Shown: positions 7,584-32,258 of the stretch, one piece after another
How positions within the stretch are numbered: position 1 is the first letter of the stretch
Layout of the letters: each line of letters starts with the position of its first letter
Origin: Acidobacteriota bacterium
Lineage (GTDB): Bacteria; Acidobacteriota; Terriglobia; Terriglobales; Acidobacteriaceae
DNA length: 33,387 nucleotides
Direction of reading: 5' to 3'
NCBI GenBank assembly: GCA_021805025.1
Contig: JAJZGF010000024.1
Coordinates: 1 to 33,387, forward strand
Program-made: the position numbers and the translations under genes
Notes under the pieces: model-generated
Seen by the model: only the letters and a program-made list of their open reading frames with translations
What the model was told of the DNA's origin: nothing
Databases searched by the model: none

Positions 7584-7588
7584 GCGGC

Positions 7589-9221: not shown

Positions 9222-9228
9222 GAACGCC

Positions 9229-14500: not shown

Positions 14501-14733
14501 CCGGAACGGCAAAAGGCTTCCTCTTCCTCTCGATGGAAGACGAAACCGGCATCGCCAACATCATCATCACACCCGACCTCTACGAACAGAACCGCCTCAT
14601 CGTCTCGCGAGGCAGATTCCTGCTCGTCGAAGGCCCGCTCCAGAACCAGGACACCGTGATCCACGTAAAGGCGACTCGCCTGATCGCTCTTGCAGACGGC
14701 GCCTTGGAGTTAAGCTCGCATGACTTTCATTAG
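11515..14733 (+). CDS. dnaE2: DnaE2 (ImuC), error-prone C-family DNA polymerase
   Basis: A 1,072-aa C-family polymerase. The start ATGACTGAG at 11515 overlaps the imuB stop. The N-terminal PHP domain begins YIELHAASAFSFLEGAS. Catalytic acidic residues are visible: D408 and D410 in PDIDLD, and D563 in KVDLLGLG. GQGRGSAAN-type phosphate-binding and LFQEQLLRIA motifs are present, and an OB-fold (SMEDETGIANIII) lies near the C-terminus. The length fits DnaE2 rather than the roughly 1,160 aa replicative DnaE. With ImuA/ImuB it performs translesion synthesis and is the main source of damage-induced mutation in many non-enteric bacteria. Confidence 0.95.
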   Translation: MTEQYIELHAASAFSFLEGASQPESLVDRAVELEMRAIALLDRNGVYGAARFHTGAQRSGVRALVGAEIAVASFAQRLTPPAWLPHQHKPEPSRLPVLCASRAGYQNLCQLITQFKMREPAKAEGAATLDDLRRYAAGLICLTGGNEGPLAAALIRGGEAEGRAVVEGLTRIFGRDCVYVELQRHQEREEEWRNQAALRIARSLKLPVIATNGVRYARARDREILDLFTAIRHHVPLEQAGRLLAVNSARHLRGAREMAALFQDVAGAVENTVELSSRLTFALSDLGYEFPRYPVPDGETMDSFLANRVAEGVRRRYGTKNDPALLQRAKKQVDHELALIARLGFAGYFLIVWDIIQFCKEHGILVQGRGSAANSAVCYALEITAIDPVGMELLFERFLSENRKEWPDIDLDLPSEDKREQAIQYVYRRYGELGAAMTANVITYRGKSAARETGKALGFDEEMLSRLSSLVSQWEWRGKTDTMQHSFKHAGFDLRHPRIAKYLDLSMRIEDLPRHLGQHSGGMVICQGRLNKVVPLERASMPGRSVVQWDKEDCADLGIIKVDLLGLGMMAVLKDCIELIPQHYGKPIDLAHLPEDDEVYRTLQKADTVGMFQVESRAQMASLPRNYPERFYDLVVQVAIIRPGPIVGKMMHPYMRRRQKKEAVTYPHPSLEPVLKRTLGVPLFQEQLLRIAMTVANFTGAEAEELRRAVGMRRSWERMKNLEGRLRAGMAANGIDPATQENIVQQISSFALYGFPESHAASFALIAYASAYLKVKYLAAFTCAILNNQPMGFYSPAVLIKDAQRHGLRVRPIDVQQSDWPCTIEHEPDASLSVRLGLGYAKGLGRRAAESLVAALGRDGAFRSIEDLVHRVPALTPRDLARLAEIGALNQLDGIRHRRDALWQVERAGKPEGPLLRQSSERMREDSASLPLRQMNVEERLIADYAGTGLTIGRHPMYYRRDALRRSHVLTAQELRTRRNGEFVRTAGCVIARQRPGTAKGFLFLSMEDETGIANIIITPDLYEQNRLIVSRGRFLLVEGPLQNQDTVIHVKATRLIALADGALELSSHDFH

Positions 14734-14925
14734 TCATCTGCTCACGCATACGCCGTGTGCCTTCCGCATGGACGGCAGCAGATGCTTATCGGAAGAATCG
14801 CCAGACAACAAGAGGCTACTGAATCACCGCCGGGACGCTGTTGAGTACCGTGGCATGAAACCCGAAATACTCATGGACGGAGTTCAAGCCGCATCGACGG
14901 CGCTTCGCAACCGTGAAAAGCAAAC

Positions 14926-14946
14926 GGCCGGGGACAAGCCCCGGCC
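14926..14946 (-). terminator. Rho-independent-type terminator after rho
   Basis: GGCCGGGG (14926-14933) and CCCCGGCC (14939-14946) form a perfect 8-bp stem with a 5-base loop, just beyond the rho stop codon. On the minus strand it is followed by GTTTGCTTTT, an interrupted U-tract. It could also stop dnaE2 transcripts coming the other way. The rest of 14,734-14,967 holds nothing recognisable. Confidence 0.65.
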
Positions 14947-14967
14947 TCTGCTTCCTCTGCTCCTGCG

Positions 14968-16218
14968 CTAAAGCTGGTTCATGTTCTGCAGGAACTCGGC
15001 GTTGTTCCGCACCTTCTCCAGGCGGCTGATCAGCAGCTCCATGGCTTCCACAGGCGACAGCGGGTTGAGCACCTTGCGCAGCACCCAGATCCGCTGCAGG
15101 TCTTCCTTGGGGATGAGCAGCTCTTCCTTGCGCGTGCCCGAGCGCTGGATGTCGATGGCCGGGAAGACACGCTTGTCTACCAGCTTCCGGTCCAGAATGA
15201 TTTCCATGTTGCCCGTGCCCTTGAACTCCTCGAAGATCACTTCGTCCATGCGCGAGCCCGTATCCACCAGCGCCGTCGCGATAATCGTCAGCGATCCGCC
15301 TTCTTCGATGTTGCGCGCCGCGCCGAAGAACCGCTTCGGCCGCTGCAGCGCGTTCGAATCCACACCGCCCGAGAGTACCTTGCCCGATGGCGGCACGATG
15401 GTGTTGTAAGCGCGCGCCAGGCGCGTGATCGAGTCCAGCAGAATCACCACATCGCGCTTGTGCTCCACCAGGCGCTTGGCCTTTTCAATCACCATCTCGG
15501 CCACCTGCACGTGCCGCGCCGCCGGCTCGTCAAAGGTCGAGCTGATCACTTCGCCCTTCACCGAACGCTGCATGTCGGTGACTTCCTCGGGCCGCTCGTC
15601 GATCAGCAGCACAATCAGCACCACTTCAGGTTGGTTGGCGGTGATGGAGTTCGCCAGCGACTGCAACAGCATCGTCTTGCCGGTGCGCGGCGGAGCGACA
15701 ATAAGTCCGCGCTGGCCCTTGCCCACCGGGGTCAGCAGGTCCATCACGCGGCCGCTCACGGCCTCGCGCGTCGTCTCCAGCTTGATGCGCTCCTGCGGAT
15801 AGAGCGGCGTCAGGTTGTCGAAGAGGATCTTGTTGCGCGTCTCCTCGGGCGACTCAAAGTTGATCGCCTCGATCTTGACCAGCGCGAAATACTTCTCTCC
15901 TTCGTGCGGCGGCCGCACATTGCCGCTGATCGAGTCGCCCGTCTTCAAGTCAAACTTGCGAATCTGCGAGGGCGAAACATAAATATCGTCCGGGCCGGGC
16001 AGGTAGTTGTAGTCAGGAGAACGCAGGAAGCCATAGCCGTCGGGCAGAATCTCCAGCACACCATCGGCGAAGATGTGGCCTTCCTTTTCGCTCTGTGCCT
16101 GAAGAATCTTGAAGATCAGGTCTTGCTTGCGAAGGCCGCTCGCGCCCGGAATCTCCAGGGTGCGCGCAATGCGGCTCAGTTCCGTAATGTTCTTTTCTTT
16201 GAGTTCAGCGATGGTCAT
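14968..16218 (-). CDS. rho: Transcription termination factor Rho
   Basis: A 416-aa hexameric RNA helicase. The N-terminal helical domain (residues 1-45) is followed by the cold-shock-like RNA-binding domain ([27 protein letters not shown]). Walker A is APPRTGKT at 175-182, and Walker B is [10 protein letters not shown]. The Q/R-loop and GALT-like C-terminal regions follow, ending [12 protein letters not shown]. The ATG at 16218 is chosen because AGGTGA sits just upstream and the protein then starts [10 protein letters not shown] at the expected length (E. coli 419 aa), although the frame stays open upstream. Possible co-transcription with the small omega-like gene 223 bases upstream. Confidence 0.97.
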
Positions 16219-16441
16219 GTTCACCTGCGGTCGGACGAGATAGGAGGTAGAGGAGGTCCAAGAGGGGGAAGTGCTCTGGGAACGTTCAGGAGGGATTTGC
16301 TTTGAACAGCAGCGTTCAATACTTTCCGGTCTCTCTTGACCAGACAAGACTACCCGCACAGGCCAGATCGCGCTTTGCACATCTTGCGTGCTGTCACAAT
16401 TGCTGGCGGTAGCTTGACTCTATGCCAAGGGCGAGTGAGGG

Positions 16442-16663
16442 TCAGGCCGCGCGACGCGCCTGGACGGGTGGCTCCACGGACGCCTTTACAGGCGCTGCAG
16501 AGGCTGGATTGGTGGAGTGAAAGCGGACCAGGACTTCGTTGGTGGTTTCCTGAAGCCGCGAGTTTGGCTTGTGGAGCTTACGAGTCGCCTTGCTGGCCAA
16601 CTGGCAGAGCTGGTAGCGGTTGGACACATGAGAAAGTGCCCCAAATACAAGATCAGAACGCAT
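16442..16663 (-). CDS. Small conserved-looking protein, possibly RNA polymerase omega-like
   Basis: A 73-aa frame with a strong Shine-Dalgarno (AGAAGGAGAAA) 6-8 bases before the ATG. It starts MRSDLVFGALSHVSNRYQLC. The stretch NRYQLCQLASKATRKLH followed by QETTNEVL resembles the omega subunit pattern NRFDLVLVAARRARQM followed by a short acidic/Thr segment. If so it would be RpoZ, which aids assembly of RNA polymerase. The match is by eye, covers only about 40 residues, and could be coincidental. The C-terminal 25 residues are Ala/Pro-rich and look disordered. It lies upstream of rho on the same strand. Confidence 0.6.
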   Translation of the reverse strand: MRSDLVFGALSHVSNRYQLCQLASKATRKLHKPNSRLQETTNEVLVRFHSTNPASAAPVKASVEPPVQARRAA

Positions 16664-16834
16664 GATATGTTTCTCCTTCTCTTATTCAGCCGCCGGATGG
16701 AGCTCCTTGGCGCCTCCGGTGCGACTGGCAGTCATACAGTGTTGAGCCGCTCCCACGACCCCCGCCCAATTGCTTAGACGTAATACGTACTCATCAAGTT
16801 TTACGGTTCCAAAAACATTTGACGCAGTTCCGTG

Positions 16835-17030
16835 CTAAAAGGTACAGGCAAATTACCTGTCAGGGATTCAAACTGTCGAACCGGAATTGGTTCGCCGCAT
16901 CGTGCCATTTCGGTTCGTACGATCTTCACGCACCAATGCATCAACGGCTGAGCCCTGGCTCAAGACTGACGCGGGACACGACAGATTTACGCTGGATCGC
17001 GTTGTGCAATCTGCCCTAGTGGATGGCACC
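16835..17030 (-). ncRNA. Candidate structured small RNA, about 195 nt
   Basis: Four stem-loops follow one another: CAGATT/AATCTG (16982-17013) enclosing ACGC/GCGT; TGAGCC/GGCTCA (16949-16962); CGAACC-6-GGTTCG (16877-16894); and ACAGG-7-CCTGT (16844-16860). On the minus strand the last is followed by ACCTTTTAG, a weak terminator-like tail, and the first is preceded by a promoter-like pair. The size resembles 6S RNA, but I could not confirm a 6S closing stem or any other known class. The strand is inferred from promoter and tail. Confidence 0.33.
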
Positions 17031-17035
17031 CTCGA

Positions 17036-17063
17036 ATCTATACCCGCTCCCGTTGTGGGTCAA
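17036..17063 (-). promoter_or_regulatory. Predicted promoter for the candidate small RNA
   Basis: On the minus strand TTGACC (17058-17063) and TATAGA (17037-17042, or ATAGAT one base further downstream) are spaced 15-16 bases apart, slightly short. It is preceded by an A-rich stretch (rc of ttttttt at 17064-17072). Transcription would enter the hairpin-rich segment and then the omega-like gene. Confidence 0.35.
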
Positions 17064-17253
17064 CATTTTTTTACGCGATCTTGATACTGCGACTCACTCT
17101 GCAAACGCTATCATAAAGTCGATTAACATATTCCATATCAATTACTTGCAATAGATACTCCGCCCCGGGGCAGTCTCCGGGCGTTTCACCATGTGGTCCA
17201 TTCTGCCGGATACCACCCGCAAATCCGCTCTGACCATGCTCGCCGGTGCCCCC

Positions 17254-17722
17254 TTACGCCCAGTAGCTCCGGTCGAGCGTCCTATATTGGATAGCCTCGG
17301 CCAGGTGCGCCACCGTCAGGCTCTCCGCACCCTCCAGATCGGCAATCGTCCGCGCCACCTTCAAAATCCGGTCGTGCGCCCGCGCCGTCAGCCCCTGCTG
17401 CTGCATCGCCCGCTCCAGCAACCGCTCCGCGTCCGGTCCCAGCTCGCAGTGCACGCGAATCTGCCGCGTCGTCATCTGCGCATTCGAGTAGATCTTCTCC
17501 CCATGCTTTTTGAACCGCTCCCGCGCCGTCAGGACCCGCGCGCGAATCTCGGCCGAACCCTCCGCCGCCGCTCCGCCGCGCAGCTCCTTGTATTGAACAG
17601 CCGGCACCTCGATGTGAATATCGATACGGTCCAGCAGCGGCCCTGAAATCTTCGCAATGTATCGCTGGATCACCGGCGGCGTACACTGGCACTCCCGCGA
17701 CTTGTCGTTGAAGTAGCCGCAC
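17254..17722 (-). pseudogene. comM: ComM/YifB 3' remnant (C-terminal about 156 codons)
   Basis: The minus-strand frame reads [17 protein letters not shown], then [20 protein letters not shown] and on to a normal end (TLDRSYWA, stop at 17254). This is the C-terminal part of the Mg-chelatase-like AAA+ protein ComM, including the sensor/arginine region and the C-terminal Mg_chelatase_C helices. Upstream of PCGYF the expected AMNPC is replaced by foreign sequence and the frame reaches a stop. The N-terminal part lies about 15 kb away at 32,848-33,321 in the same orientation. The Walker A and B region is in neither piece, so the gene is dead. In other bacteria ComM is a branch-migration helicase in natural transformation. 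Confidence 0.93.
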
Positions 17723-17753
17723 GGCTGCGGGTATCTTCATTGCTGAATCCCGC
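17723..17753 (+). repeat. 31-bp direct repeat, copy A, at the left island edge
   Basis: A 31-base sequence beginning GGCTGCGGGTATCTTC and ending GAATCCCGC, identical to copy B at 24,624-24,654 in the same orientation. It directly abuts the broken comM sequence. GCGGG and CCCGC near its ends can pair as a short stem. The next 18 bases after the two copies are also related (9 identities, 7 transitions), so the homologous unit is longer than the perfect part. Confidence 0.85.
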
Positions 17754-18246
17754 CTTTTCTATTTGCCAATCGTTTGTTCTCGAGCGACGTGACCTGAGAC
17801 CACGCTCGAGCCTGCGCGTCGTGTGCAACGCAACATGCTCATTCTTGTTAAAACTATGAAAAATAATAAGATAATTGTATATTCTGCTGCAATTCTCAAC
17901 GGCCTCTTGGCCTATATATGACGTGCGTGCAGACACTCAGCCGTCACTGGCCCAATGGGTGTCTCGGGGGACCTATCCTGGGTGGCGCGGTTCAGACAAA
18001 CAGGGGGTTCTGGTTTGTTGTGCCACCGCCCTGATTGATATTCCGCGGATTTTCCTTCGATTGAGCATGGATGCTGCTCACTCTCCGAGTCGCCGATCCT
18101 CCACGGCGAATGCAGCTTCCGCTTTGCCTCCGGGAGTTTCGTGCTACTTTTTCACAGACAAGATGACTTACGCACCCGCGCTGAGCCGCTTTTCCAGAAG
18201 GGGGAGGCGGAGTCTGCGCTTAAACTGTCTTAGACACTCTTATCTC
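17754..18246. other. Leader region of the Hsp70 operon: inverted repeat and possible promoter
   Basis: No convincing gene. CTCGAGCG (17779-17786) and CGCTCGAG (17803-17810) form a perfect 8-bp inverted repeat around a 16-base loop, with extra GTG/CAC pairing inside. A distinctly AT-rich stretch at 17,840-17,885 holds TTGTTA (17845-17850) and GATAAT (17870-17875), 19 bases apart, a plausible promoter reading towards the operon. The frame of the following gene stays open through here, but the translation looks non-coding (many Ser/Arg/Cys, no domain pattern). Confidence 0.4.
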
Positions 18247-21033
18247 ATGTCGCGCAAACAAAACCGGAGGAATAGTCCAGCGCCAAGCACAGCCGCCGAG
18301 GCGGCGGACACCGGGCTGTTGCCGCAAGAGATCGCGCGGGTGCGGGAGCAGATTGCTGGCCGGCATTCCAAGACCGCTCTGCAGCTTGCCAAGGATCTCT
18401 ACAAGCGCTCGGCGACGTCGGACTCGGAAGCTCTGCTGACCGATGCCTACAAGGCTCGCATCAACGATCTGCTCAAGCTGGGCATGACCGTGGAGGCCAA
18501 GACCCTGTTGGGGATCGTGCAGGAGCGGTTCCCCTCGGCGCTGCCGCGATTGACCGAACTCGGCCGGGAGATATCCGCGCAGGATGGCAAGTTGGAGGAG
18601 GTTGTCGCGCCGCTCGCCGATCCAGAACTCCCGGCGGGAGACCGCGAACTGATCGAAACCTTCCTCCGCCAGCGGATTCATGACCTGCCGGCATTGGCGG
18701 GGGTTTCATCCCTGCCACCGGAGCATTCCCTGCGCACGGCTGCATCGGCGCTGGCGGCTGCGTTCCAGGCCGTGACCAGCGGGCCGGTCGACGACGCGGT
18801 TCTGGCGCTGCCGGAGGTCTCACGGCGCAGCCCGCTGGCCCCGTGGAAGGCTCTGATCAGGGCGATTGGCTGTTACTATCGGCGCGAGGACGAAGAGTGC
18901 CACAGGTGGCTGCAGACGATTCCGATCGATTCTGTGCCCGCGCGCCTGCTTCCTGCATTCTCAGCGATGCTGAGGACCAAGCCCGTGTCCGGCGCGGAAG
19001 TCAAGCTCAGTCTGGCCGAAGAGAAGCTCGTCGGCCTGACCGCGGATCATGGCGCGGCTTTGCGCGCTGCCCTGACCAGCCTGGAAGATGCGCTGCATGA
19101 AAGGAAGCAGAAGCAGGTTCTGGATGCGGCGCGGAAAGCGATGGCGGCCAGCCAGCACTGCCGCCCCGAGGTGCGGGACCGACTGCGCCAGCACATCGCG
19201 GTGCGCGCCGATGCCCAGCAGGTCTCACGATTAGCTGTGGAATCCGCCATCGGAGGCGCTCCACGGGAGTGTGCTTACTACCTCCGGCTTCAGGCAATGG
19301 GGTTGGAAGAGCAGGGGCATGTGGATGCCCATGCGGAAGCGGCCTTGGCCTGGGCAGGTTTCCGCCGCGAGGCCATAAAGGAGAAATGGTTTGCCTCGGG
19401 CGGGCTGGAGGATGGCATCCTCTCACTGCACATGGGCCAGTTGATCGAGAAGGTGCCCGAGGAGCTCATCGATGAGATAAGGGCGGAGATGGGGAACTAC
19501 CGCAAGCCGCGCGATTGGGATAAGAACGACGGCCTGCCTTCTCCGGGAGCGCTGTATGAACGCGCCTGCAAGGCCGACCCCCATCCGGAGGCATTCCAGG
19601 CCTGGTTGAGCTGGGCGCGGAAGAACGAGTCTGGGGCGTTGGCCGACGAGGTTGCTGAGCAGTGGCGAAAGGCGCGGGCCACTGACATTCAACCGCTGCT
19701 TTACCTGATGGAATCGGCCGAGAAGCGCGCCGCATTCAAGAAGTCGCTGAAGTATCTGGAGGAAGCGGAGAATCTGGACCGGCTGAATCCCGAGGTGCGG
19801 CGAGACAAGCTGCGGCTGCTTCTATCCGCCGCCTTGCGCCATATGCAACAGCGCAAGACTCACTTGGCGCTGAAGGAAATTGAGCAGATTGAGACGATAC
19901 CCGAGGTGCGGCCGGGGGAAATTGCCTCGCTGGCCGCGGCGCTGCGTTGGTCCGCGGCCGCGGCGGACCGGGATAAGGCTGCCCAGGATGAGCAGGAGGC
20001 GCAACTGAATAGATTGATGGGAAGCGTGGCCGCGCATCTGCTGATCGTGTCTGTGGCAGGAAAGGCGGAGATGCTCTTTGCGGTCTCGTCGAAGGTGTTG
20101 AAGGCTGCCAAGATTCCCGCCGCCGAACTGCTGGCCGGCGTGGCCAAAGCCCGCGCACTGGGCGAGTGGGCAAGCATTCCCATCGAACTGCCGCGCGAAT
20201 GGATCGATCCACTGATGGCCTCGATGGAGCTGCCCAACTGCCCGGCGGATGCCGAGCAGATGCTGGTTGTTGGCGAGGCGGCCTTAGACGGCTATTCCGC
20301 GGAACTGGCTTATACCGTCTCGGTTGCCGGACTGGCCAAGGGCGGGGCGAACGCGGAGTTCCTCTTCCTGCGCGCCCGCTCGCTGCCGTCGTCGTCGGCC
20401 TCCGTCAGGCGCGAGGGCTGTTTGACGGCCTCTCTCGAACTCGCCCGGAGGGAGCGCAACACCGCACTGGCGGGCGGGATTCTGGATCATCTGAATGGGA
20501 TCAACTCCAGCCCAGGCAAGCGCTGGAGGCCGGGAAGCAATTTCGGAGACGATCCGGAGATTGCCAGCCGCGCCGTTCCCCCGCAGTTGCTTGGCAAGAT
20601 TCTGGAGGAAGAGCAGACGCTGAAGAAGTTTCCCGGCTACGGCTTCAATGAGGAGCCTAAGTATGCCGAGGATCTGAACGCTTCTCTTTGCGATTGCCCG
20701 AAGTGCCGGGCAAGGCGCGGGGAGACAGGCACGGGCGGCTACGAGTTTGTCGACGACGGCGACGAGGACGATTTCGAGGACGACGATTTCGCTCACCCCG
20801 GAGGCTTTGCCCTTTCGGAACTTCTCAAGGGACTTGGCAAGATGATGGGTCTTTCCGCTGCGAAGATCAAGGAACTGGAAAAGGCCAGGGCCAACGGAGA
20901 GGACCCAAAGACCGCTATGGACAGAATCCTGGGCGAGATATCTTTCGAGACGGGAGCGCCGGAAACGCCGAAGAGAAGAAAGACCGAAAAGTCCGCAAAG
21001 GTTCCACCGCCGGAGCAGGGCAGTTTGTTTTAG
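18247..21033 (+). CDS. Uncharacterised 928-aa helical-repeat protein, first gene of the Hsp70 operon
   Basis: I do not recognise the family. Apart from a basic, disordered N-terminus (MSRKQNRRN...) the protein is almost entirely alpha-helical, with Ala/Leu/Glu-rich segments of 30-40 residues that look like degenerate TPR-type solenoid repeats (for example around residues 35-110, 390-450 and 480-560). Near the C-terminus is CxCxxC (C815, C817, C820), then an acidic run (836-847, DDGDEDDFEDDD), a helical segment (ALSELLKGLGKMMGLSAAKIKELEKA) and a basic, Pro-rich end (QGSLF). The ATG at 18247 gives a sensible N-terminus but has no clear Shine-Dalgarno, so the start is uncertain. It lies 9 bases before the J-like gene. 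By position it may be the substrate-recruiting or target protein of the Hsp70; that is inference. Confidence 0.8.
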   Translation: MSRKQNRRNSPAPSTAAEAADTGLLPQEIARVREQIAGRHSKTALQLAKDLYKRSATSDSEALLTDAYKARINDLLKLGMTVEAKTLLGIVQERFPSALPRLTELGREISAQDGKLEEVVAPLADPELPAGDRELIETFLRQRIHDLPALAGVSSLPPEHSLRTAASALAAAFQAVTSGPVDDAVLALPEVSRRSPLAPWKALIRAIGCYYRREDEECHRWLQTIPIDSVPARLLPAFSAMLRTKPVSGAEVKLSLAEEKLVGLTADHGAALRAALTSLEDALHERKQKQVLDAARKAMAASQHCRPEVRDRLRQHIAVRADAQQVSRLAVESAIGGAPRECAYYLRLQAMGLEEQGHVDAHAEAALAWAGFRREAIKEKWFASGGLEDGILSLHMGQLIEKVPEELIDEIRAEMGNYRKPRDWDKNDGLPSPGALYERACKADPHPEAFQAWLSWARKNESGALADEVAEQWRKARATDIQPLLYLMESAEKRAAFKKSLKYLEEAENLDRLNPEVRRDKLRLLLSAALRHMQQRKTHLALKEIEQIETIPEVRPGEIASLAAALRWSAAAADRDKAAQDEQEAQLNRLMGSVAAHLLIVSVAGKAEMLFAVSSKVLKAAKIPAAELLAGVAKARALGEWASIPIELPREWIDPLMASMELPNCPADAEQMLVVGEAALDGYSAELAYTVSVAGLAKGGANAEFLFLRARSLPSSSASVRREGCLTASLELARRERNTALAGGILDHLNGINSSPGKRWRPGSNFGDDPEIASRAVPPQLLGKILEEEQTLKKFPGYGFNEEPKYAEDLNASLCDCPKCRARRGETGTGGYEFVDDGDEDDFEDDDFAHPGGFALSELLKGLGKMMGLSAAKIKELEKARANGEDPKTAMDRILGEISFETGAPETPKRRKTEKSAKVPPPEQGSLF

Positions 21034-21042
21034 GGAGAAACG

Positions 21043-21351
21043 ATGAACCAGAACGCGTTGCCGATTCCCGATCCCTATGACGTTCTGGGCCTTGTCCCCG
21101 GCGCCGATGACGAGCAGATTCGCGCCGCCTATCTGGCCAAACTCAAGCAGTTTCCGCCGGACAGGTCTCCGGCCGAGTTCGAGCAAGTTCGCGACGCGTA
21201 CGACCTTCTGCGCGACCGGCGCAGGCGTGCCCAACACACGCTGTTTTCGGTCAATCCGGAGGCGCCTCTGGAATCATTGGTGGATGGCAAGGACAATGAT
21301 CGACGATTCGCCGGCCCCGGCCCATGGCTGGCGGTACTGAAGGAAAGATAG
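21043..21351 (+). CDS. J-domain-like protein with PPD in place of HPD, 102 aa
   Basis: DPYDVLGLVPGADDEQIRAAYLAKL is a typical J-domain helix I/II region, and EFEQVRDAYDLLRD matches helix III. Between them the expected HPD reads P38-P39-D40 (QFPPDRSP), so the histidine needed to stimulate Hsp70 ATPase in canonical J-proteins is missing. A short tail of about 40 residues follows. AGGGAG lies 6-7 bases before the ATG, between the two genes. It is followed immediately (TAG then ATG) by the GrpE-like gene. It probably docks on or regulates the neighbouring Hsp70 in a non-canonical way. Confidence 0.85.
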   Translation: MNQNALPIPDPYDVLGLVPGADDEQIRAAYLAKLKQFPPDRSPAEFEQVRDAYDLLRDRRRRAQHTLFSVNPEAPLESLVDGKDNDRRFAGPGPWLAVLKER

Positions 21352-22185
21352 ATGGAGATGGAAGAAGATAATTCCTCCGCTGCGTTTTCGCCCCAGGAGC
21401 GGGAACGAATTGTACGCGGATTCGAGGCCTGGCTGGACCAATATCTTGACCGAGCGATGGCCGATGAGCCGGCGCCGCAAGGATTGACCGCCGGGCTACT
21501 GGCCGCGCTGGAGAACGGAGATCCGCTTCCACCTCTGGAGAGCGATCCGTCAGGCAGCGGCGGCTGCGACCTTTACTCCCTGTGGGCGGCCATGACCGCG
21601 CTGACGCAGGAGGTCAGACTGCAGGGCCGGACATTCAAGCAATTGAATGAAACCCTCAGCAAAAGCGCGCAGAGCCTGGAGACATCCGCCGCCGAAACAA
21701 GCGGCGGCGGGGACGCACCGTCTTGCGCCCAGCAGGCCGAAGCCCGGCCGGCCCGCAAGCAGGAGATTCACTTGCCCCTCAATATTCTGCTCGACCTGCG
21801 CGACCGGGTAGAGCGTGGCGGCAATACCGCGCGCAACGCTGCGGAGGAACTGACGCAAAAACGGTTGCCTACGTTGGCGCGCTGGCTGGGCGGTGGCGGA
21901 TACGCCGGCCACACCCAGGAGATTCTGGCCGCGCTCTCCCACGGCTACACCCTTACCCTGGACACGCTGGACGAGGCCCTGGTGGGCGCGGGCGTCAGCC
22001 GCATCGCTTGCCAGGGACAGATCTTCGATCCTCGGCGCATGACCGCTGTCGATATTGAGGAAACCAGCACCGTGGCCGAGGGAACGGTTGTCGAGGTCTA
22101 CCGTAACGGCTACGAATGGAACGGAGAAGTCCACCGCACGGCTCAGGTGAAGGTGGCGCGCACCCCCGAAAGGAAATCCGCATGA
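21352..22185 (+). CDS. GrpE-like nucleotide exchange factor
   Basis: A 277-aa protein. Its C-terminal 55 residues match the GrpE beta-head: FDPRRMTAVDIEE, then GTVVEVYRNGYEWNGEVHRTAQVKVAR. The centre has a helical/coiled segment (ALTQEVRLQGRTFKQLNETLSKS and LPLNILLDLRDRVERG) corresponding to the GrpE stalk. The first 70 residues are an extra domain (ERIVRGFEAWLDQYLDRA) not found in housekeeping GrpE, which is around 200 aa. The start follows the J-like stop without a gap, with AAGGAAAG upstream; ATG 21358 is an alternative. It overlaps the Hsp70 start by ATGA. It should promote ADP release from the operon's Hsp70. Confidence 0.85.
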   Translation: MEMEEDNSSAAFSPQERERIVRGFEAWLDQYLDRAMADEPAPQGLTAGLLAALENGDPLPPLESDPSGSGGCDLYSLWAAMTALTQEVRLQGRTFKQLNETLSKSAQSLETSAAETSGGGDAPSCAQQAEARPARKQEIHLPLNILLDLRDRVERGGNTARNAAEELTQKRLPTLARWLGGGGYAGHTQEILAALSHGYTLTLDTLDEALVGAGVSRIACQGQIFDPRRMTAVDIEETSTVAEGTVVEVYRNGYEWNGEVHRTAQVKVARTPERKSA

Positions 22186-24050
22186 GCGATTCGAACGAAC
22201 TGATTGTGGGCATCGATCTGGGTACCACCAACTCCGAGATAGCGGCCTTCGTCGATGGCAAGGTAACCATTCTCGGCTCCCTCAGCAAGAACATGCTGCC
22301 ATCGGTGGTGGGCCTTTCCCCGTCAGGAGAGCTGCTGGTGGGTGAGGCGGCGCGCAATCAGTCAGCGCTTTATCCCGAACGCACCGTGCGCAGCATCAAG
22401 CGCAAGATGGGCAGTAGCGAGACCGTTACGCTGGGAGACCGCGAGTTCACGCCGCCGGAGATCTCGGCGCTGATTCTGCGCGAGCTAGCCTCCTGGGCCA
22501 GCCAGCAACTCGGCCGCCCCGTGGCCAAGGCGGTCATTACCGTTCCCGCCTATTTCTCCGATGCTCAGCGCCAGGCCACGCGCGAGGCCACCACACTGGC
22601 AGGCCTTGAGGCCATCCGAATTCTGAACGAGCCGACAGCCGCAAGCCTGGCCTATGGAGAAGGGAGCCGTCATACCGCCATGGTCTACGACCTGGGTGGA
22701 GGCACCTTCGACGTCTCCATCGTCTCGCTCGAGGGCGACATCACCGAGGTGCTGGCCAGCCATGGCAACAATCGCCTGGGCGGGGACGACTTCAACGATC
22801 TGCTGGCCGAGCATCTGCTCGCTGCATTTCAGTCCCAGCACGGAATCGATCTGCGCAGCGGCCATCCCGTGGCCCGCGCCCGCATCTGGTGGGCCGCCGA
22901 GGAGGCCAAGCGCCGCTTGAGCTTCGATCCCGAGGTGACGGTGCGCGAAGAAGCGCTGGCCACCGTCGATGGAAAACCGCTGCACCTGGAACTGGAGATC
23001 ACCCGCGAGGAGTACGAGGACATGATCCGTCCCCTCGTCGGGCAGACGCTGGAGCACATGTCCAAGGCCCTCGGCGACGCCGGCAAAAGCCCCTCAGAGC
23101 TGGATGCGATCCTTCTAGTTGGTGGCTCCACGCGCACCCCGTTGGTCGCGCGCATGATCGAGGAGCGCACTGGCCTGACCCCGCGGGAAGAGATCCATCC
23201 CGACCTGTGCGTGGCCCTGGGCGCGGGCGTGATGGCCTCGCGGCTCGCCGGTCACGAAGTGGAACGGGTGCTGGTCGATGTAACTCCGTACTCCTTCGGC
23301 GTCTCCTTCCTCGGCGAGCGGGGCGGCGTTTCCTATCCCCACTGTTACAAGCCGATCATCCGCCGCAACACCCCTCTGCCGGTCACCCGCACCGAGCGGT
23401 TCTACACCAGTCATCCCTATCAGGAAGAGGTCGATGTCCGCGTCTATGAAGGCGAGGACGAGGATGCGCTGCGCAATATCCTGATCGGCGATTATCGCGT
23501 AACAGGCCTGACTCCGATGCGCGATTTCAACGAGGTGCTCTGCCGCATGAGCCTGGATCTGGACGGCATCCTCAACGTCACCTCGATCGAGAAGAAGTCT
23601 GGATTGTCCAAGCACATCACCGTCGCCCGCGCTCTGGAAGAACGCAGTGAAGCCGAGATTGCTGCCTCCCGCAATCGTCTCGAAGCCCTCTATGCCACCC
23701 GCCAGGACGATGATCTCGACGAAGAGAGCGACGACTTCGATGAGAAGAACGGCAATTTCGACGACGAAGATGCGCCTCAGATCGAAGGCGAGACCGATTT
23801 CACCATCTATCCCACGCCGAAAGACGCGCCTGTGGCCGGGGATGATTGGAGCGTGGCCGAGGACGAGGGCCGCAAGATGATCGAACGCTCCCGCCTTTTG
23901 CTCGATAAGATCCACGAGGAAGACCGCGAGGAAGCCATCGACCTGAATCAGGCCATCGAATCCGCAATCGAGAGCCGCGATGGGGCCGCACTCAAGCAGG
24001 CCGTTCGCGAGCTGCGCGAGATGCTGTTCTTTGTCGAGGGCTGCGCATGA
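22182..24050 (+). CDS. Island-borne Hsp70 chaperone, 622 aa
   Basis: A complete Hsp70. The ATPase domain has GIDLGTTNS (10-18), [39 protein letters not shown] and LLVGGSTRTP. The linker reads VLVDVTPYSFGVS, followed by a beta substrate-binding domain with an insertion-rich front (GERGGVSYPHCYKP). After it comes an acidic, probably flexible stretch (about 509-537, Asp/Glu-rich) and a short helical lid (EEAIDLNQAIESAIESRDGAALKQA). It is closer to HscA/DnaK-like proteins than to truncated HscC types, but it is clearly distinct from the window's HscA. The ATG at 22182 overlaps the GrpE-like stop, and its own stop overlaps the next start. Cytoplasmic. Confidence 0.93.
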   Translation: MSDSNELIVGIDLGTTNSEIAAFVDGKVTILGSLSKNMLPSVVGLSPSGELLVGEAARNQSALYPERTVRSIKRKMGSSETVTLGDREFTPPEISALILRELASWASQQLGRPVAKAVITVPAYFSDAQRQATREATTLAGLEAIRILNEPTAASLAYGEGSRHTAMVYDLGGGTFDVSIVSLEGDITEVLASHGNNRLGGDDFNDLLAEHLLAAFQSQHGIDLRSGHPVARARIWWAAEEAKRRLSFDPEVTVREEALATVDGKPLHLELEITREEYEDMIRPLVGQTLEHMSKALGDAGKSPSELDAILLVGGSTRTPLVARMIEERTGLTPREEIHPDLCVALGAGVMASRLAGHEVERVLVDVTPYSFGVSFLGERGGVSYPHCYKPIIRRNTPLPVTRTERFYTSHPYQEEVDVRVYEGEDEDALRNILIGDYRVTGLTPMRDFNEVLCRMSLDLDGILNVTSIEKKSGLSKHITVARALEERSEAEIAASRNRLEALYATRQDDDLDEESDDFDEKNGNFDDEDAPQIEGETDFTIYPTPKDAPVAGDDWSVAEDEGRKMIERSRLLLDKIHEEDREEAIDLNQAIESAIESRDGAALKQAVRELREMLFFVEGCA

Positions 24051-24343
24051 AGGACGATCTTTGCAGCCCGGCCGGCTGCCCAGTCTGCCGGGCTCGTTTT
24101 CGCGGTTCGCCCCGGTGCTCGCGTTGCGGCGCAGACCTCACCGCGCTGATGCTGCTGGCGGCTCACGCCTACGTCCTGCGTCAGGCCGCCCGGCAATCGT
24201 TGAGGCAAAGCGATTACCAAGCGGCCATGGCCTCCGCGCACGCCGCACAGCGGTTGCATTCCACTGCGGAAGGCATTCTTCTCAGCGTTCTCTCGACCGC
24301 GACGGCCAGCCCGCTTTCCGGACCACATCAAAAACCAGCCTGA
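24047..24343 (+). CDS. Zinc-ribbon plus helical protein, 98 aa, last gene of the Hsp70 operon
   Basis: The ATG overlaps the Hsp70 stop (ATGA). Residues 11-27 form a zinc ribbon, CPVC ... CSRC, followed by GADLTALMLLAA; an extra cysteine is at 6. The rest is helical (AYVLRQAARQSLRQSDYQAAMASAHAAQRLH), which resembles one TPR unit, and the last 12 residues look disordered. I do not recognise a named family. The coupling to Hsp70 and the helical-repeat character shared with the 928-aa protein suggest a small adaptor. No promoter of its own is visible. Confidence 0.75.
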   Translation: MKDDLCSPAGCPVCRARFRGSPRCSRCGADLTALMLLAAHAYVLRQAARQSLRQSDYQAAMASAHAAQRLHSTAEGILLSVLSTATASPLSGPHQKPA

Positions 24344-24796
24344 AACCTTGCCGATCCTCGCTGCCCATATCCGCGTGAGGCAAGACTGCGGAGTGGGCTC
24401 TTCGTGGACAAAAACGATGCTCACTGTGCCTTGCGCAGGAGCAGGGTAGGCGCGCCCGAGACGGGGCCAACTGCATTGAAATCCGCTGCTTATTGCCCTC
24501 TTCTAAGGATTAGACCCATAAGTCGGCATGGCGACTTAGATTCCTCATTCAACCTTTGATTTGTGCGAGTTAGACGGCAGCGAAGATGGTGTGGTCAGGG
24601 CGCCACAGCCAAAGGTACCACAGGGCTGCGGGTATCTTCATTGCTGAATCCCGCTTGATTTACCTACCGATTCGTCCTGCAACGGAATGGAAGCACGGTC
24701 AATAGCGATTTTGCGCTCCTGGTCTGGAAGTTCTTCTGCGCTTGTACGAAAATCCAACCAGCGCAGCATTATCAGCAGGTATTGAAGGGGTGTTAC
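24344..24796. other. 453-base intergenic region with hairpin and repeat copy B
   Basis: No supported gene. TAAGTCG-GCATGG-CGACTTA (24519-24538) is a perfect 7-bp hairpin without a U-tract. Copy B of the 31-bp repeat follows at 24,624-24,654. It marks the right end of the GC-rich Hsp70 module; the sequence beyond looks different in composition. Confidence 0.5.
24624..24654 (+). repeat. 31-bp direct repeat, copy B
   Basis: Identical over 31 bases to copy A at 17,723-17,753, same orientation. The two copies bracket 6.9 kb containing only the Hsp70 operon. I saw no inverted copy elsewhere in the window, which argues against simple transposon terminal inverted repeats. Confidence 0.85.
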
Positions 24797-25369
24797 ATGG
24801 GTTTCTCAAGGCGATTTTTTCTCGGGCTCGAAGAACGGAGCGAGGATCGACCGCCGATCGCGGTCACGATCGGTTTACTTGGGCTGGGTGTCTTCCTCGT
24901 GATCCGATCTCTCGTCCTCAGCCCAGGGTTGAGTTACAGCCTGATCATCCTCACGCCCGACGTTCAAGACGCAAGAGTAGTCGAGCCGGATTCAAAACAG
25001 ATCATAATCGATTCGTTGACCGCGGATGGTGTAGATGTGTCCGACACCCGGGTAGCTCGAGACATCGAAAATCTTGCCGACGCTATCCGGACCCTCAATG
25101 CGGCTACCCGGGCTGTCGACGCGGCATGGCCCAACCTGGTCCGGAGCCTTGACTCAGTACTTGCGCATTCCCGGCCGCGCGGGCACCGGGAGAGTATTCT
25201 CGACGCCGTCGCGCGGGATGCCAGATTATCATCATCGGCCTTTCGGAGACGCCAGGCAGAGCACTCGGAGAACAAATCAGCAGTCGCCGCCCCCGGCTTG
25301 TTCGAGGCGCTCCGGACAGAGGCGATCCAAGAATACAAGGAGCTGCAGACGAATGGCTCTGAAAGCTGA
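24797..25369 (+). CDS. Hypothetical single-pass membrane protein, 190 aa
   Basis: GAAGGGG lies 6 bases before the ATG at 24797. After a basic/aromatic N-terminus (MGFSRRFFLGLEER) there is one strong membrane segment at about residues 19-41 (PPIAVTIGLLGLGVFLVIRS). The remainder is hydrophilic and mostly helical (VARDIENLADAIRTLNAATRAVDAAW), ending in a charged tail. I do not recognise it. A cytoplasmic N-terminus and an outside or periplasmic C-terminal domain are suggested by the charges. It starts 142 bases after repeat copy B and may be accessory cargo. Confidence 0.55.
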   Translation: MGFSRRFFLGLEERSEDRPPIAVTIGLLGLGVFLVIRSLVLSPGLSYSLIILTPDVQDARVVEPDSKQIIIDSLTADGVDVSDTRVARDIENLADAIRTLNAATRAVDAAWPNLVRSLDSVLAHSRPRGHRESILDAVARDARLSSSAFRRRQAEHSENKSAVAAPGLFEALRTEAIQEYKELQTNGSES

Positions 25370-25446
25370 ATCCAGTCCCGGCCTCGGCAGGATCAGACGC
25401 GCAGGCCCTTATGCGTAGGTTGCAGAAATGAAAATTAGGCGGAGCT

Positions 25447-26511
25447 ATGGTGACCCTGATCATCGATCATGACCGCGCCAGCGTGGTGGATATCCTCGAC
25501 AGCCGCAGGACCTCAGATCTTGTGAGGAGGTTTTACGCTGCGAGCAACCGCGAGGAAGTGAAGATCCTTACGATGGACATGCTCGAGCAGTTTTACAGCG
25601 CGGCAAAAGAGCCGCATACGCTCGATCCGAAGAAGAAGGGGCTTTCGGATGAGGATCAAGAAGAGGCTCGGCAACTGGCTTTTTATTTCGCGGAAGGAGA
25701 CATGACGCAGTTCGTTCAAACGGGTAAGAGCAGGTCGCCGGAACTGGGCGAAGCTCTCCCTAATGCTCAAATCATCGTCGACCATTTTCACATCGCGAAG
25801 GCGATCTCGGACGCCTTTACCAGTGCGCGGCGCGCGGTTCAGAGAAAGATTGATCAACAAGTCAATAAAGACCCCTCTGGCAGGCTCGGAACCGAAGCCA
25901 TGGAAATGATGGAAAGGGAAATGGACGCGGTCAATTTGAAAGGGAAAAGGCAGAAGCGGACGAGCCCGGCTGCCTGGTTGAAAAGCAAACGGTTCGAACT
26001 GTCGAAGCGGAAAGGCAAGTACAAGGATCAGGGTCAGGTGCAACTCATCGTGGAGGTTTTCCTCGCACAAGATTCTTTGTTAAAGGCCGCATGGGAACTG
26101 AAAGAAGAAGGATTGGCGATTTTCGACAAGTCCCGGTCGCCAGAGAAAACAAAGTCGATGATTCAGGATTGGATGGACAAAGTCCAGACGAGCGAAGCGC
26201 AGAAGCACTATCAACCAGTAGTGGACACGATGAAGAGATGGATCGATGCCCTATTCGTCATCCCAGGTAGCAAGTACGACAACGCCAGGACCGAGGCGAA
26301 AGTCGGTTTCATGAAGTTGCGCAGAGCGCTTGGACGGGGAGTTTCCTTTAAGACAATTCGCGCACTGATGATTTGGGGGGACGCCCATCGCAGAAGGACG
26401 GTTTTGCCAGAGCACTTCGAGGTAGGAAAACGAAAAACTCTTGATCGCCTGCTTGAATGGATAGACCAGGATGAAGCGCGGCTGACTATCCAATATCCCG
26501 AACGCAAATAG
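25447..26511 (+). pseudogene. ISL3-family transposase, N-terminally truncated
   Basis: 354 residues resembling the C-terminal DDE part of ISL3 (IS204/IS1001/IS1096/IS1165) transposases. MVTLIIDHDRASVVDILDSR corresponds to the strand after the first catalytic Asp. LTMDML is the next acidic position, LPNAQIIVDHFHIAKAISDA matches the family LPNAxIVxDRFHV motif, and NARTEAKVGFMKLRRALGR holds the catalytic Glu. The zinc-finger/HTH region and first catalytic Asp expected ahead of it are missing, and a stop codon lies in frame just upstream, so the element is probably inactive. No terminal inverted repeats were identified. Confidence 0.75.
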
Positions 26512-26929
26512 AGACATCCGAGAGGGCGGACCGGCTGGGTTCTGGAAACCAGGCAACTCTGGAAGGGCTGATTGCGCGAGATTGGTTGGAATTCAATGCT
26601 CATGCCGGCCAGTGCACGTTGTGGTGATCAGAACCGCCAGCACCGTCCAGCGTGTGCCAGTGGCTGGCGGACAAAGTGTTAAGTCTGGAGCTATATAGGG
26701 GCGCGGTTGAGGCTGAGCAGGGGTAAGAGAGGACTCCCCATCAGAGGCTGGGAACACGGTCGGCGCAAGCCCCCGCGGAAGACGCTAGAGATGACGACAA
26801 TGGCGCCGGTGTCATCTCCGGTGCTCCCGATATAGCAGAGTTAGCCGTCAATGGCCGGAGTTGCTTTCGCCGCTCCAACCCGAGCTCGCTTCCGCTAATC
26901 CGTCGCAAAACAACTGAAAGGAGTGCCAA
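26512..26929. other. 418-base region without a gene
   Basis: Nothing convincing is coded here on either strand. It probably holds the 3' flank of the ISL3-type element and worn mobile-element sequence. A good Shine-Dalgarno (GAAAGGAG) at the right end belongs to the next gene. Confidence 0.4.
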
Positions 26930-27217
26930 ATGAATGCATGTACTAGTTGCGACGGCCGCCTCGATGATTGCAACGAGTCGCAGACTGTTTGCCCTTGGTG
27001 TGGCGAGCCCAACTGCTGGCCCAGGTTCCTGGATGCCCTCGGTTATCACTTTAAAACCGGCCATACGTTATCAGTTCAAAACCGGCCAACGGGATTGGCC
27101 GAAGACGTGATTGTTTTACCCTGCCGCAGCGTCTGCATGCAAGGCGAGTGCGAACTGTCCGCGCGGAAAAAGTTGCAAAAGCTGCGAGTAGACACTGCAT
27201 ACTTCAGTCATGGCTGA
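26930..27217 (+). CDS. Cys-rich ORF with antisense IS-derived C-terminus, 95 aa
   Basis: GAAAGGAG precedes the ATG by 6-7 bases. The first 60 residues have CTSC and CPWCGEPNC motifs, suggesting a zinc-binding fold (MNACTSCDGRLDDC...). The last 33 residues are the antisense translation of an IS4-type transposase start on the other strand, so the frame now ends in mobile-element sequence rather than at its original stop. Function unknown. It may be the surviving 5' part of a longer gene. Confidence 0.45.
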   Translation: MNACTSCDGRLDDCNESQTVCPWCGEPNCWPRFLDALGYHFKTGHTLSVQNRPTGLAEDVIVLPCRSVCMQGECELSARKKLQKLRVDTAYFSHG

Positions 27218-27279
27218 TCCTTTCCTCCTCTGAATGTGGCCCTGCTCAGGAACCTACTCCAGAGTAGCGGGGATCAGCC
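27119..27279 (-). mobile_element. IS4-family element remnant: leader and first 31 codons of the transposase
   Basis: On the minus strand AGAGGAGGAAAGG precedes an ATG at 27,211. The frame reads MTEVCSVYSQLLQLFPRGQF, then ten more codons to a stop. The (V/C)xSxLLQLFPRxxF pattern is the usual start of IS4-group transposases with the DUF4372-like N-terminal domain. The leader contains GGCTGATCC/GGATCAGCC (27212-27220 and 27271-27279), CCTGCTCAGG and CTACTCCAGAGTAG hairpins (27241-27267). The rest of the transposase is gone. Confidence 0.6.
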
Positions 27280-27723
27280 GCTTTGCGTGTCAGGCAGGCG
27301 TGATGAGCTACCTGCTATTTTGGACAGCAATGGTTCGGCACGTGAACGGTCTCCTCGCTGAGGGAACGAGGTAGACGGAGGTGAAGATAGGGATCTGCAG
27401 CCCACAGCAGACAACGCGATAGTAACGTCCGGTCGCTGCCTCGCGGAAACTTCCAACAAGTCCATAATTGTCAGCATTTAGGTGAGTTATAGGTCGATCG
27501 AGGCGCGTGTCGGCCAGGTAATGGCGCTAGATCTCGGATCGTTGTGCGTTTGCCCAAATCGGGGGATTGTATTGAGGTGAGTTCTCTAGTTTGCTTGTCG
27601 ATGACTACCCCATATTGCATACGGGACCTGCCGTGACATATCGTTTGGGTCTGGACCAGGAGAAGCGGCATTGTGGATAACCATCGTATGTAGGCGTTCG
27701 ATTGTCGCTGGAGACTGCAAAGG
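27280..27723. other. 444-base region upstream of the large c-di-GMP gene
   Basis: No gene supported. It contains the upstream edge of the IS4-type remnant and presumably the promoter of the following gene, but I see no convincing -35/-10 pair. GGAG about 9 bases before 27,724 can serve as its ribosome binding site. Confidence 0.4.
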
Positions 27724-30700
27724 ATGGCACAAGATACGGTGACCCTAAGTCAGCGTAAGTCAGAGATCCCGTTGCTCGGGACTCCTCGGTTGCTTCACTG
27801 GGAAGACCGATTTCGAATGGGTTTCGCGTCGATCGATGAAGCACATCGGGATCTCTTTTGTAGTTTCAATCGGCTTGTAGAAGTGCAGTGCGATCACGAA
27901 TGGCGAGGCGAGATTCTGCGAGCCTTCGATGAACTGGCATCTCGGGCATTCGAGCATTTTGCCATCGAACAGATTCTTCTGGACGAAGCGTCACACAAAG
28001 AAGGTTCCGAGTCCTGGAATCAGTGTGCACATCGCAGCTTTCTCCATTTTGTCGAAGTGACACGCGCCCTGTTTGAAGAGAGACGTTTGGGTATGATGCA
28101 GGGTGTGACGAGCTACCTCGGTCAGTGGATTCTCTTTCACGTTCTGGATTGCGGCCTTCATCAGTGCTCGAAACAAAATCCCCCGTTGCAACGGGCGCGA
28201 GATGCCGCTTCTGTGGGTACTGCTTCCGGGGAGACACAGGAGGGCTATGACGGCAGGAATGTCTACGATTCATTCGGCAATTTGATGCTGGGATGGATTG
28301 CGACTGCACACACCCTAGAACTTGAATTGCAGCGCGCGAATGAAGCCGACGTGCGTGCCTCACGATTACGCGATTTTCATGTCCTGCTCGCTCATGCAAA
28401 TCAAGCGGTGGCGGAAGCAGAAGACGAACAGGAACTGTTCGAGAGGATTTGCCAGCTGGCGTCGCAGTGCGGTGGTGTAGTGCTCGCATATATTGGCCGC
28501 CCCGACGAACGAGGTGCCTTCCAATTCCTGTGCAGCGCAGGGCCCGCCCGGGGATATCTTGACGGCAATCTCATATCCATCGATCCAGGTATTCCGGAAG
28601 GGCTTGGCAGCGCGGGGCGCGCCTGGCGCGAGCAAAGGGCCTACTTCAATGTTGGTTTTACAAGTACACCTTTTCTATTGCCCTGGCGCGAGCGCGCTTT
28701 GCGGTACGGACTAGAGGCAAGTGCGAGTCTCCCCATCAAGCAGGAAGGAAGTATTTCCGCCATGATGGGAATCTATGCGCGTGAGGAGGGGCTTTTCGAC
28801 GACGTCCTGCAAAGTGTTCTGGTCGAACTCGCAGAGAACGTATCGAGAGGCCTCGATCGGTTGGCTCTGATGCGCAGGGAGCGTGAGTCTCACCAGTTCA
28901 CCTCGAAGCTATTGGACTCCCTGAACGTAGGTGTCTGCGTAGTGACGCATCCGGAGGGCGGCATCGAGCTTGCGAATGCCTATTTTCGCGAGTTGATCGG
29001 AAGTCAGGACGGCAGGAGTAAGTTGCCTACGAGACTCAGCAGTCTAGTCGACGATTGCAAGGATCTGGATCGATTGCAGGAGTGCGGAGCGATTGCATGG
29101 CAGGCTGGCAGAGGCGCGATTCGCGATATTCAGATGAATCGGCTCAGCGGTGAAGTGTGGCACGCGGACCTATCAGCGATCCGACTGGAGAGCGAAGCCG
29201 CCAGACCCCGCATACTCTGGACGCTACTGGACGTCTCCGAGCGCCAGGAAAAGGAGGCGGCCATCCAGAAACTCAGCAAAATACGTGCGACTTTACTGGG
29301 CAACACCGTTGCAGGGATTGATTTAGTGCGCTATCCCGACCGTGTCATCGTCGAGGTGAATCAGGGGTTTCTGGACATTCTTGGGTATGCAAGCGCCGAG
29401 GAAATCGTCGGCAAGAAAACCAGCGAGCTCTACTTCAGAGAAGACGAAAGTGATCGTATGGCACAGCTGGCGGCGCGTATCTTGGCGGATGACAGCGGCG
29501 AACTGCGCGACGTGTGTATTCGACGCAGAGACGGCAGCGAGGCGTACGTGGACGTGTATGGACGCCGCCTGGAGGACAGCTGCCCAGATCAGCCCGTAAT
29601 TATCTACACGTCCGTAGAGGTGACCGAGCGGAGAAGACTGACCCTCGAACTGACGCGCCAGGCTCAGGTCGATCCTTTGACGGGTCTGCCCAATCGTAGA
29701 GCGCTCGAACAACACCTGAGCCGCGCCATTCATAGAGCCTCGAGACATAACACAGTCTGCGCAGTTGGAGTGATTGACCTAGACGACTTCAAACCTATTA
29801 ACGATGAATTCGGCCACGAAACCGGTGATGAGCTCCTCGTGCAAATTGGCCATCGTCTGCGGGCCGCAACGCGCACATCGGATTTCATTGCACGCTTCGG
29901 AGGCGACGAGTTCATTATTGTGATCGATGATCTCGAAGAATCCATCACGCTTGAGCAACTCGAACCCCTCCTTGATAGGCTGCACAGTCCGCTTGTCGAA
30001 CCATTCGAAATCGGGAAGGGTCATTCTGTACGAATCGACATGAGCATGGGTGTGGCTTTGTTTCCGATCGATGCGGAAGAACCAGATGCTCTTCTGCGCC
30101 TGGCAGATGCTGCGATGTATCAGGCGAAAGCCCAAAGGAAGGACCGAAAGCAGTGGTGGTGCCTGAGACCCATCGATGGAGCATCCATCACGCGTGGACA
30201 GTATGTTGAGCCGTTTGGGCCCGAGGCGCACGGACTTCTCGATAGGTTATCGAAGTATCTGAAGTCGGCCTCAGCCGAGTTTGTGCAGATGTTCTACACG
30301 ACGATTGAGAGTGATCCTGAAACTGAAGCAATTCTGCGGAACCTTGGAGAAGTGGAATATCAGAAGCTCCAGAGATCGCATCAGGGCTATTTTGAGTTCC
30401 TGCTGAGTCCGGAAGCAAGGATAGAGGAAATCCAATTCAGAGCCAAGAAGATGGGAGCAGCCCACGCATTGACTGGGATGGGGAGCGCTTGGATGGGGCA
30501 GACTACGATTCTCTACCGTGATCTGGTTCACCGGCAGCTCAGCCGAGTTCCCCATGCCTTAGGAGACCGACATCGCGCCGCCAAGATCTTTGATGCGCGA
30601 CTTGACGTTCATTCGAAAGCCCTGATCGCAGGGATGACAGACGTAGAGGAGGCCTACTCTCTCTATCTTTCCAGACCTTTGGCCAAAGAAGGGTCAAGCT

Positions 30701-32238: not shown

Positions 32239-32258
32239 TCCGGCCCTGAAGAGTGTGA

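Follow-up and report, generated by a model that had tools for sequence, protein, structure and literature searches.

Contig JAJZGF010000024.1 of assembly GCA_021805025.1 (Acidobacteriota bacterium, Acidobacteriaceae) carries a five-gene Hsp70 operon, analysed here within a stretch of 33,387 nucleotides of the forward strand (the window). The five genes lie on the plus strand with gaps of 9, 0, -4 and -4 bases, a layout first described in a reading of the DNA alone (the sequence-only reading) and reproduced from the open reading frame calls. Gene 1 (18247-21033) encodes a 928-residue all-helical scaffold with an acidic, low-confidence C-terminal linker. Gene 2 (21043-21351) encodes a J-like protein of 102 residues, gene 3 (21352-22185) a GrpE-type nucleotide exchange factor of 277 residues with an N-terminal extension, and gene 4 (22182-24050) a DnaK-type Hsp70 of 622 residues with an acidic insert in its C-terminal region. 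Finally, gene 5 (24047-24343) encodes a 98-residue protein in which a zinc ribbon (CPVC...CSRCG) is joined to a short helical part. As had also been noted, the operon is separate from the iron-sulphur cluster (ISC) chaperone set of the same window, whose HscA-type Hsp70 is encoded at 236-2050 on the minus strand; a third, DnaK-like Hsp70 of the genome sits on another contig.

The product of gene 1 had been called an unknown helical protein. This holds at the level of named families, as it gives no Pfam match at E ≤ 1 and no NCBIfam or PADLOC family above cut-off, but its fold can be assigned. The structure model (mean predicted local distance difference test score, pLDDT, 81; predicted template modelling score, pTM, 0.53) is an all-helical superhelix of the repeat type, a TPR/HAT-like alpha-solenoid, and distant relatives give TPR matches in Pfam. 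No more specific known fold was retained, the Foldseek and VIA-align matches being to generic helical repeats among the families listed there. Close relatives share the start MSRKQ. A cysteine knuckle, CDCPKC (codons 815-820; 20689-20706, plus strand), precedes the acidic linker; C815, C817 and C820 are at least 90% conserved in alignment A1, and the knuckle is absent from several distant rows of alignment A3. Homology between the near and far families of scaffolds is supported by hhalign (probability 99.7, 531 columns), members of the far family being 20-35% identical within alignment A6; the two families differ in their linkers, which are acidic in the near family and proline-rich in the far one.

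Genes 2 to 4 keep the labels J-like, GrpE-like and Hsp70 on the strength of their Pfam DnaJ, GrpE and HSP70 matches. The gene 2 product matches the DnaJ profile with 42.4 bits against a cut-off of 27.8 (E 7.5e-11) and has J-domain matches in the PDB. Stimulation of Hsp70 requires the HPD motif of J-domain proteins (PMC11349236; papers are cited by such numbers, each from part of its text). Here PPD stands in its place at codons 38-40 (21154-21162, plus strand), as read from the DNA and in 15 of 15 aligned J-like proteins; the divergent loci L100 and L045, described below, have PPD and PPE respectively. The protein is therefore termed J-like. HPD is present in the three further J-domain proteins detected in the window's genome. 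The operon had been taken to encode a complete private chaperone cycle: it is indeed dedicated and self-contained, but a complete cycle is not established, since the HPD histidine is missing from the J-like protein throughout the alignment. The J-like protein would then serve for docking, unless the operon's Hsp70 has adapted to it.

Both profile and fold place the gene 3 product among the GrpE proteins. Its Pfam GrpE match has an E-value of 2.7e-19, the fold comprises long helices and a beta-wing, and all 11 Foldseek PDB matches at E ≤ 0.001 are GrpE chains, the underlying model being of middling confidence (mean pLDDT 68.6). Pfam HSP70 covers residues 8-518 of the 622 encoded by gene 4 (6.6e-126), which thus has both the nucleotide-binding domain (NBD) and the substrate-binding domain (SBD); among its DnaK matches in the PDB, a solved DnaK aligns over residues 8-494. 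Against the two DnaK equivalog models it scores 447.5 bits (cut-off 648) and 435.3 bits (cut-off 822.55); gene 4 belongs to the Hsp70 family and is not a DnaK equivalog. For gene 5, Pfam gives zinc-ribbon matches only, under the curated cut-off, and NCBIfam and PADLOC name no family above cut-off. Its four cysteines (C11, C14, C24 and C27) are invariant in 14 of 14 sequences and its helical part is conserved, in agreement with its first description as a zinc-ribbon/helical protein.

Co-inheritance and mobility of the operon

Searches with the 928-residue protein found 350 relatives, and the near-family counts given below rest on the best 120 of these 350. A scan of GTDB contigs for the operon yielded 19 loci, 16 of them titled Acidobacteriota, its members or Granulicella/Edaphobacter, two Planctomycetota (L018 and L020) and one 'bacterium' only. 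Locus L005 is the copy carried by the cultured Edaphobacter aggregans. All five genes are present in the order scaffold, J-like, GrpE, Hsp70, zinc ribbon at 14 of the 19, so that the 928-residue protein does co-occur with its four partners, the check that the sequence-only reading had proposed. Three more loci (L011, L012 and L017) keep the gene order as far as the contig end. Another, L006, carries the first three genes with the GrpE frame split in two and a group II intron reverse transcriptase adjoining on the opposite strand, while L019 has gene 1 and no J match in the remaining 1.1 kb of contig. The L006 copy, with its broken GrpE frame beside the reverse transcriptase (4280-6829), is one of three in the metagenome-assembled genome (MAG) SKS5.bin94. 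Two further loci have all five genes in the same order: L100 (genome G471) and the very divergent L045 (genome G159), where the zinc ribbon is matched only weakly (E 0.0022). Across 14 loci, the pairwise distance matrices of the five proteins correlate with r of 0.835-0.945, and for each of the ten protein pairs none of 999 permutations reached as high a value. The five genes form a real co-inherited unit.

Gene 1 is rare: the near alignment detects it in 4 of 347 genomes of the phylum. The far-alignment profile matched 151 of 396 genomes, a count inflated by generic TPR matches; G159, G368 and G471 were inspected, and these, along with the window's own genome, are taken as true members. Among the far relatives of the scaffold are Pedosphaera sp. 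and BH09GEM1, names that we take to suggest Verrucomicrobiota and Gemmatimonadota, for the scaffold homologues only. Among 20 loci, three is the largest number that share any one neighbouring gene family; the five genes are thus set in different contexts at the loci compared, with no constant companion.

That the operon is mobile cargo, as the sequence-only reading had it, is supported by comparison with two other genomes. In the closest, G026, window positions 6002-17724 and 32843-33370 are matched at 95-96%, and the intervening island (17725-32842) is absent. Its flanks are contiguous there apart from 598 bases, and yifB, a gene of the Mg-chelatase-like ComM family, is intact as a single 531-codon reading frame. 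In the window the island splits yifB into a 3' part (17254-17724, minus strand; Pfam Mg_chelatase_C, 4.5e-31) and a 5' part (32843-33354, minus strand; PF13541, 3.7e-43), replacing about 0.6 kb of the middle of the gene. The second genome, G053, contains a block (locus L002) corresponding to 17947-24528 of the plus strand at 93% nucleotide identity. The operon DNA itself is 93.5% identical between the two, exceeding the identity of rho (88-91%) and dnaE2 (72%), which argues for recent horizontal transfer. Gene 1 has no match in G026 and is found in 5 of 59 genomes searched within the genus, the window's own included; G058 has three divergent copies and G032 only a fragment. The G032 fragment (L041, 9747-10434) retains decayed stretches of gene 1 and GrpE, and the listed completeness of that genome is 100%, implying that the operon has been lost within the genus.

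A 23-base exact repeat occurs on the plus strand at the left end of the island (17729-17751) and again between the operon and an ISL3-type transposase gene (24630-24652). These direct repeats sit within a longer 54-base repeat of 81% identity and flank the operon; the transposase open reading frame follows at 25447-26511 on the plus strand (Pfam DDE_Tnp_ISL3, 9.6e-28). The 23-base repeat has two copies in the window's genome and, with two mismatches, one each in G042 and G066 among 79 genomes; near the latter two, tblastn gave no match to the window's transposase. The best inverted partner agrees at only 17 of 31 positions (searched over 26300-32900), and the repeats were rejected as the ends of one known element. 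A phage or plasmid origin was likewise rejected: 26 pattern matches in IMG/VR included none that was confirmed, and searches of IMG/VR and of phage and plasmid collections, at the sensitivity settings applied, yielded no relatives. Elsewhere in the island lie a 1504-residue open reading frame (27724-32238, plus strand) whose product by eye resembles a GGDEF/EAL signalling protein with sensor domains, a transposase remnant with an HTH_21 match close to the right border (32262-32744, plus strand), and two tandem 25-base units of 80% identity (27035-27084) inside a small open reading frame (26930-27217).

A patchy, mobile distribution, with several divergent copies in MAG G058, would suit anti-phage or anti-plasmid defence, in which an Hsp70 stationed on DNA or on the sliding clamp would dismantle the replication complexes of invaders. 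Modules of Hsp70, GrpE and DnaJ/TPR proteins occur in proposed conflict systems (PMC7159879), and Hsp70 works on phage and plasmid initiators (PMC8215388). Against this, PADLOC-DB 2.0.0 gives no match below E 0.02 for the five proteins (HamA1 at E 0.022 for gene 1, no family for the other four), and for 10 flanking proteins it gives three matches, two of them to broad helicase families and one weak. Pfam searches of 30 flanking proteins from 10 loci found mostly metabolic or mobile neighbours and no effector-like variable gene. A stress or defence function had been suggested for the operon; with no such PADLOC match, no neighbouring family shared by more than three of 20 loci and no phage or plasmid relatives at the sensitivities applied, its defence part is unsupported. 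As the flanking proteins show no consistent theme in either PADLOC or Pfam, defence was set aside as the favoured reading and is kept as a rather improbable alternative.

The C-terminal tip of the scaffold

The scaffold ends in QGSLF (codons 924-928; 21016-21030, plus strand), a putative sliding-clamp-binding motif of the form QxxLF. Q924, L927 and F928 are invariant in alignment A1 and nearly so in alignment A2. Among the best 120 near relatives, Qxx[LMF]F is the exact C-terminal end of 115, lies a few residues short of the C-terminus in four (P0038, P0062, P0090 and P0100), and is missing only from P0120, a protein of 571 residues that was seemingly cut short. In the far family, 12 of 17 members end in the motif (QLELF, QVDLF, QMDLF, QMTLF, QPDLF, QRNLF, QGSLF or QLEFF) and three more end in QNLELPF or QPELPF; P0162 (513 residues) has no motif. 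Shuffling the last 30 residues produced mean counts of only 0.16 in 120 (near) and 0.035 in 17 (far), and none of 195 other open reading frame calls from the loci carries the motif.

The usual bacterial clamp-binding consensus is QxxLF, in which positions 1, 4 and 5 are the most important (PMC12309361). The tip of gene 1 has the sequence feature expected of clamp-binding proteins, a QxxLF-type motif in a flexible, conserved place, and the ImuB of the window carries QLGLF. As its conserved tip matches the clamp consensus in the way that this ImuB does, the gene 1 product is predicted to dock on the sliding clamp, DnaN. The ImuB-like open reading frame belongs to what looks like an ImuA-ImuB-DnaE2 mutagenesis cassette (9229-14733, plus strand). 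We propose, with a probability of about one half, that the five genes encode an Hsp70 machine that spreads horizontally between genomes, is brought to DNA by the clamp-binding tip of its scaffold and remodels proteins there.

Several observations weigh against this proposal. Position 2 of the tip is usually glycine in the near family, the far-family member P0146 ends in RRLF without the glutamine, and the tip of L014 also lacks it. In an intermediate group found with a Planctomycetota query, only 3 of 25 new proteins have QxxLF and most have polybasic ends; not every version of the machine therefore needs the tip. Four scaffolds (P0126, P0136, P0143 and L016) end in PF, and no linkage to replication genes was found among the 30 flanking proteins scanned, of which, besides reverse transcriptases and a transposase, only a RecD2-like helicase (L002) and an SNF2-type helicase (L015) concern DNA. 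A five-residue motif can, moreover, serve another partner.

One such partner could be internal. On this account the operon would encode a general-stress or client-specific mobile Hsp70, with QxxLF acting as a docking peptide for its Hsp70, J-like or zinc-ribbon subunit. C-terminal peptides, when conserved, can be intra-complex signals; bacteria with two DnaK proteins show specialisation, Myxococcus having a GrpE-DnaK2 bicistron (PMC11019930); and the flanks have no replication theme. However, most of the intermediate group lacks the tip despite having all five genes (L018, L020 and L100), so the tip is not needed for assembly, and the variation seen at the tip follows the clamp consensus. In addition, a scan of the window with a consensus for the controlling inverted repeat of chaperone expression (CIRCE) found no element allowing up to 3 mismatches, so heat-shock control via CIRCE was rejected. 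We consider this explanation unlikely.

The polybasic ends suggest a different alternative, namely that the tails serve general nucleic-acid or nucleoid localisation, polybasic tails being ancestral and QxxLF and PF minor variants, and that the machine acts in quality control of RNA or of nucleoid proteins. In its favour, most tails of the intermediate group are polybasic, and many other scaffolds have basic residues ahead of the tip, but the near and far families conserve the tip far better than the basic stretch, and we give this possibility little credence. In a 74-row tree of scaffolds, a quick tree with several long branches built without the last 110 residues, the polybasic class accounts for 20 rows and the four PF-ending proteins form one group with support of 28. 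The QxxLF label requires three changes on this tree, at least two of them forced by supported branches; the tip has at least two origins on it. The PF ends resemble the tip of single-stranded DNA-binding protein (SSB), a reading based on these four proteins. These SSB-like ends may be degenerate clamp motifs (compare QPELPF).

Proposed mechanism and comparison with known systems

In the clamp-recruited machine that we favour, the tip of gene 1 would dock on DnaN, the beta clamp, and the solenoid would hold the J-like, zinc-ribbon, GrpE-like and Hsp70 subunits together with the client. Given that its HPD is missing, the J-like protein is probably a docking subunit, and stimulation of the ATPase would be supplied by the scaffold, the client or a host J protein. 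Through ATP hydrolysis and GrpE-driven exchange, the Hsp70 would then dismantle or remodel protein complexes at the clamp or the replication fork; possible targets are polymerases bound to the clamp and replication complexes belonging to other replicons. Phage and plasmid replication proteins are established substrates of Hsp70. DnaK, for instance, takes apart the lambda O-P-DnaB complex and remodels the RepA and RepE initiators (PMC8215388).

A broader version of this proposal, in which we place somewhat less confidence, is that the operon belongs to a new class of Hsp70 machines that are mobile and stationed at the replisome. The machine would be a complex of five proteins that attaches to the clamp through a QxxLF tail, with other tails contacting SSB partners or nucleic acid in some lineages, and that remodels complexes on replicating DNA, an HPD-less J-like subunit driving the Hsp70 cycle. 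Such machines would be spread over Acidobacteriota and Planctomycetota and, as judged from scaffold homologues only, probably over Verrucomicrobiota and Gemmatimonadota. If the proposal is correct, a portable operon connects the remodelling of proteins with the replication clamp. The family would also be a natural setting in which to learn how Hsp70 cycles with a J subunit that is without HPD throughout. We know of no Hsp70 system with its own sliding-clamp address, and a search of the literature outside subscription journals and preprints showed no account of this operon or of a clamp-addressed Hsp70 among the matches listed.

The operon shares with the housekeeping DnaK-DnaJ-GrpE system the NBD and SBD-beta of its Hsp70, the GrpE fold and a J-type domain. 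It differs in that its J-like protein has only 102 residues and no HPD, its Hsp70 scores under the DnaK cut-offs, two dedicated subunits are added, and it is mobile. HscC with DjlB and DjlC of E. coli is likewise a specialised Hsp70 with dedicated J proteins and a sporadic distribution. In the part of the text cited, however, HscC has no GrpE signature and works with tail-anchored J proteins (PMC8215388), whereas the operon has a GrpE gene and a soluble-looking J-like protein with no tail anchor by eye; it therefore lacks the defining features of an HscC system. HscA-HscB, present in the window, is also a specialised Hsp70 pair, but unlike the operon it is described in the same text as having an iron-sulphur task and neither GrpE nor scaffold (PMC8215388).

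The closest published arrangement that we have seen is that of the GAP1-N2 GTPase-centred systems, presumed conflict operons in which HSP70 and GrpE occur with FNIII-DnaJ or FNIII-TPR proteins (Kaur et al. 2020, PMC7159879, in the part cited). The Hsp70 logic of those systems is complete, but they are built around a GTPase. The five genes here, by contrast, include neither a GTPase nor an FNIII gene; Pfam and NCBIfam found no GTPase family among them, nor did Pfam among the 30 flanking proteins of 10 loci, which are part of the flanking genes. MxDnaK2-GrpE2 of Myxococcus xanthus, compared by description only, similarly has a second DnaK and its own GrpE in one operon, and scaffold, J-like and zinc-ribbon genes are not described in the cited part of that account (PMC11019930). 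The operon's J-like protein, finally, recalls the J-like proteins of the Pam16/Pam18 type, in which HPD is likewise degenerate. These are, unlike it, eukaryotic and membrane-linked, with PPD not reported in the text cited, and in trypanosomes they have been repurposed for mitochondrial DNA replication (PMC11349236).

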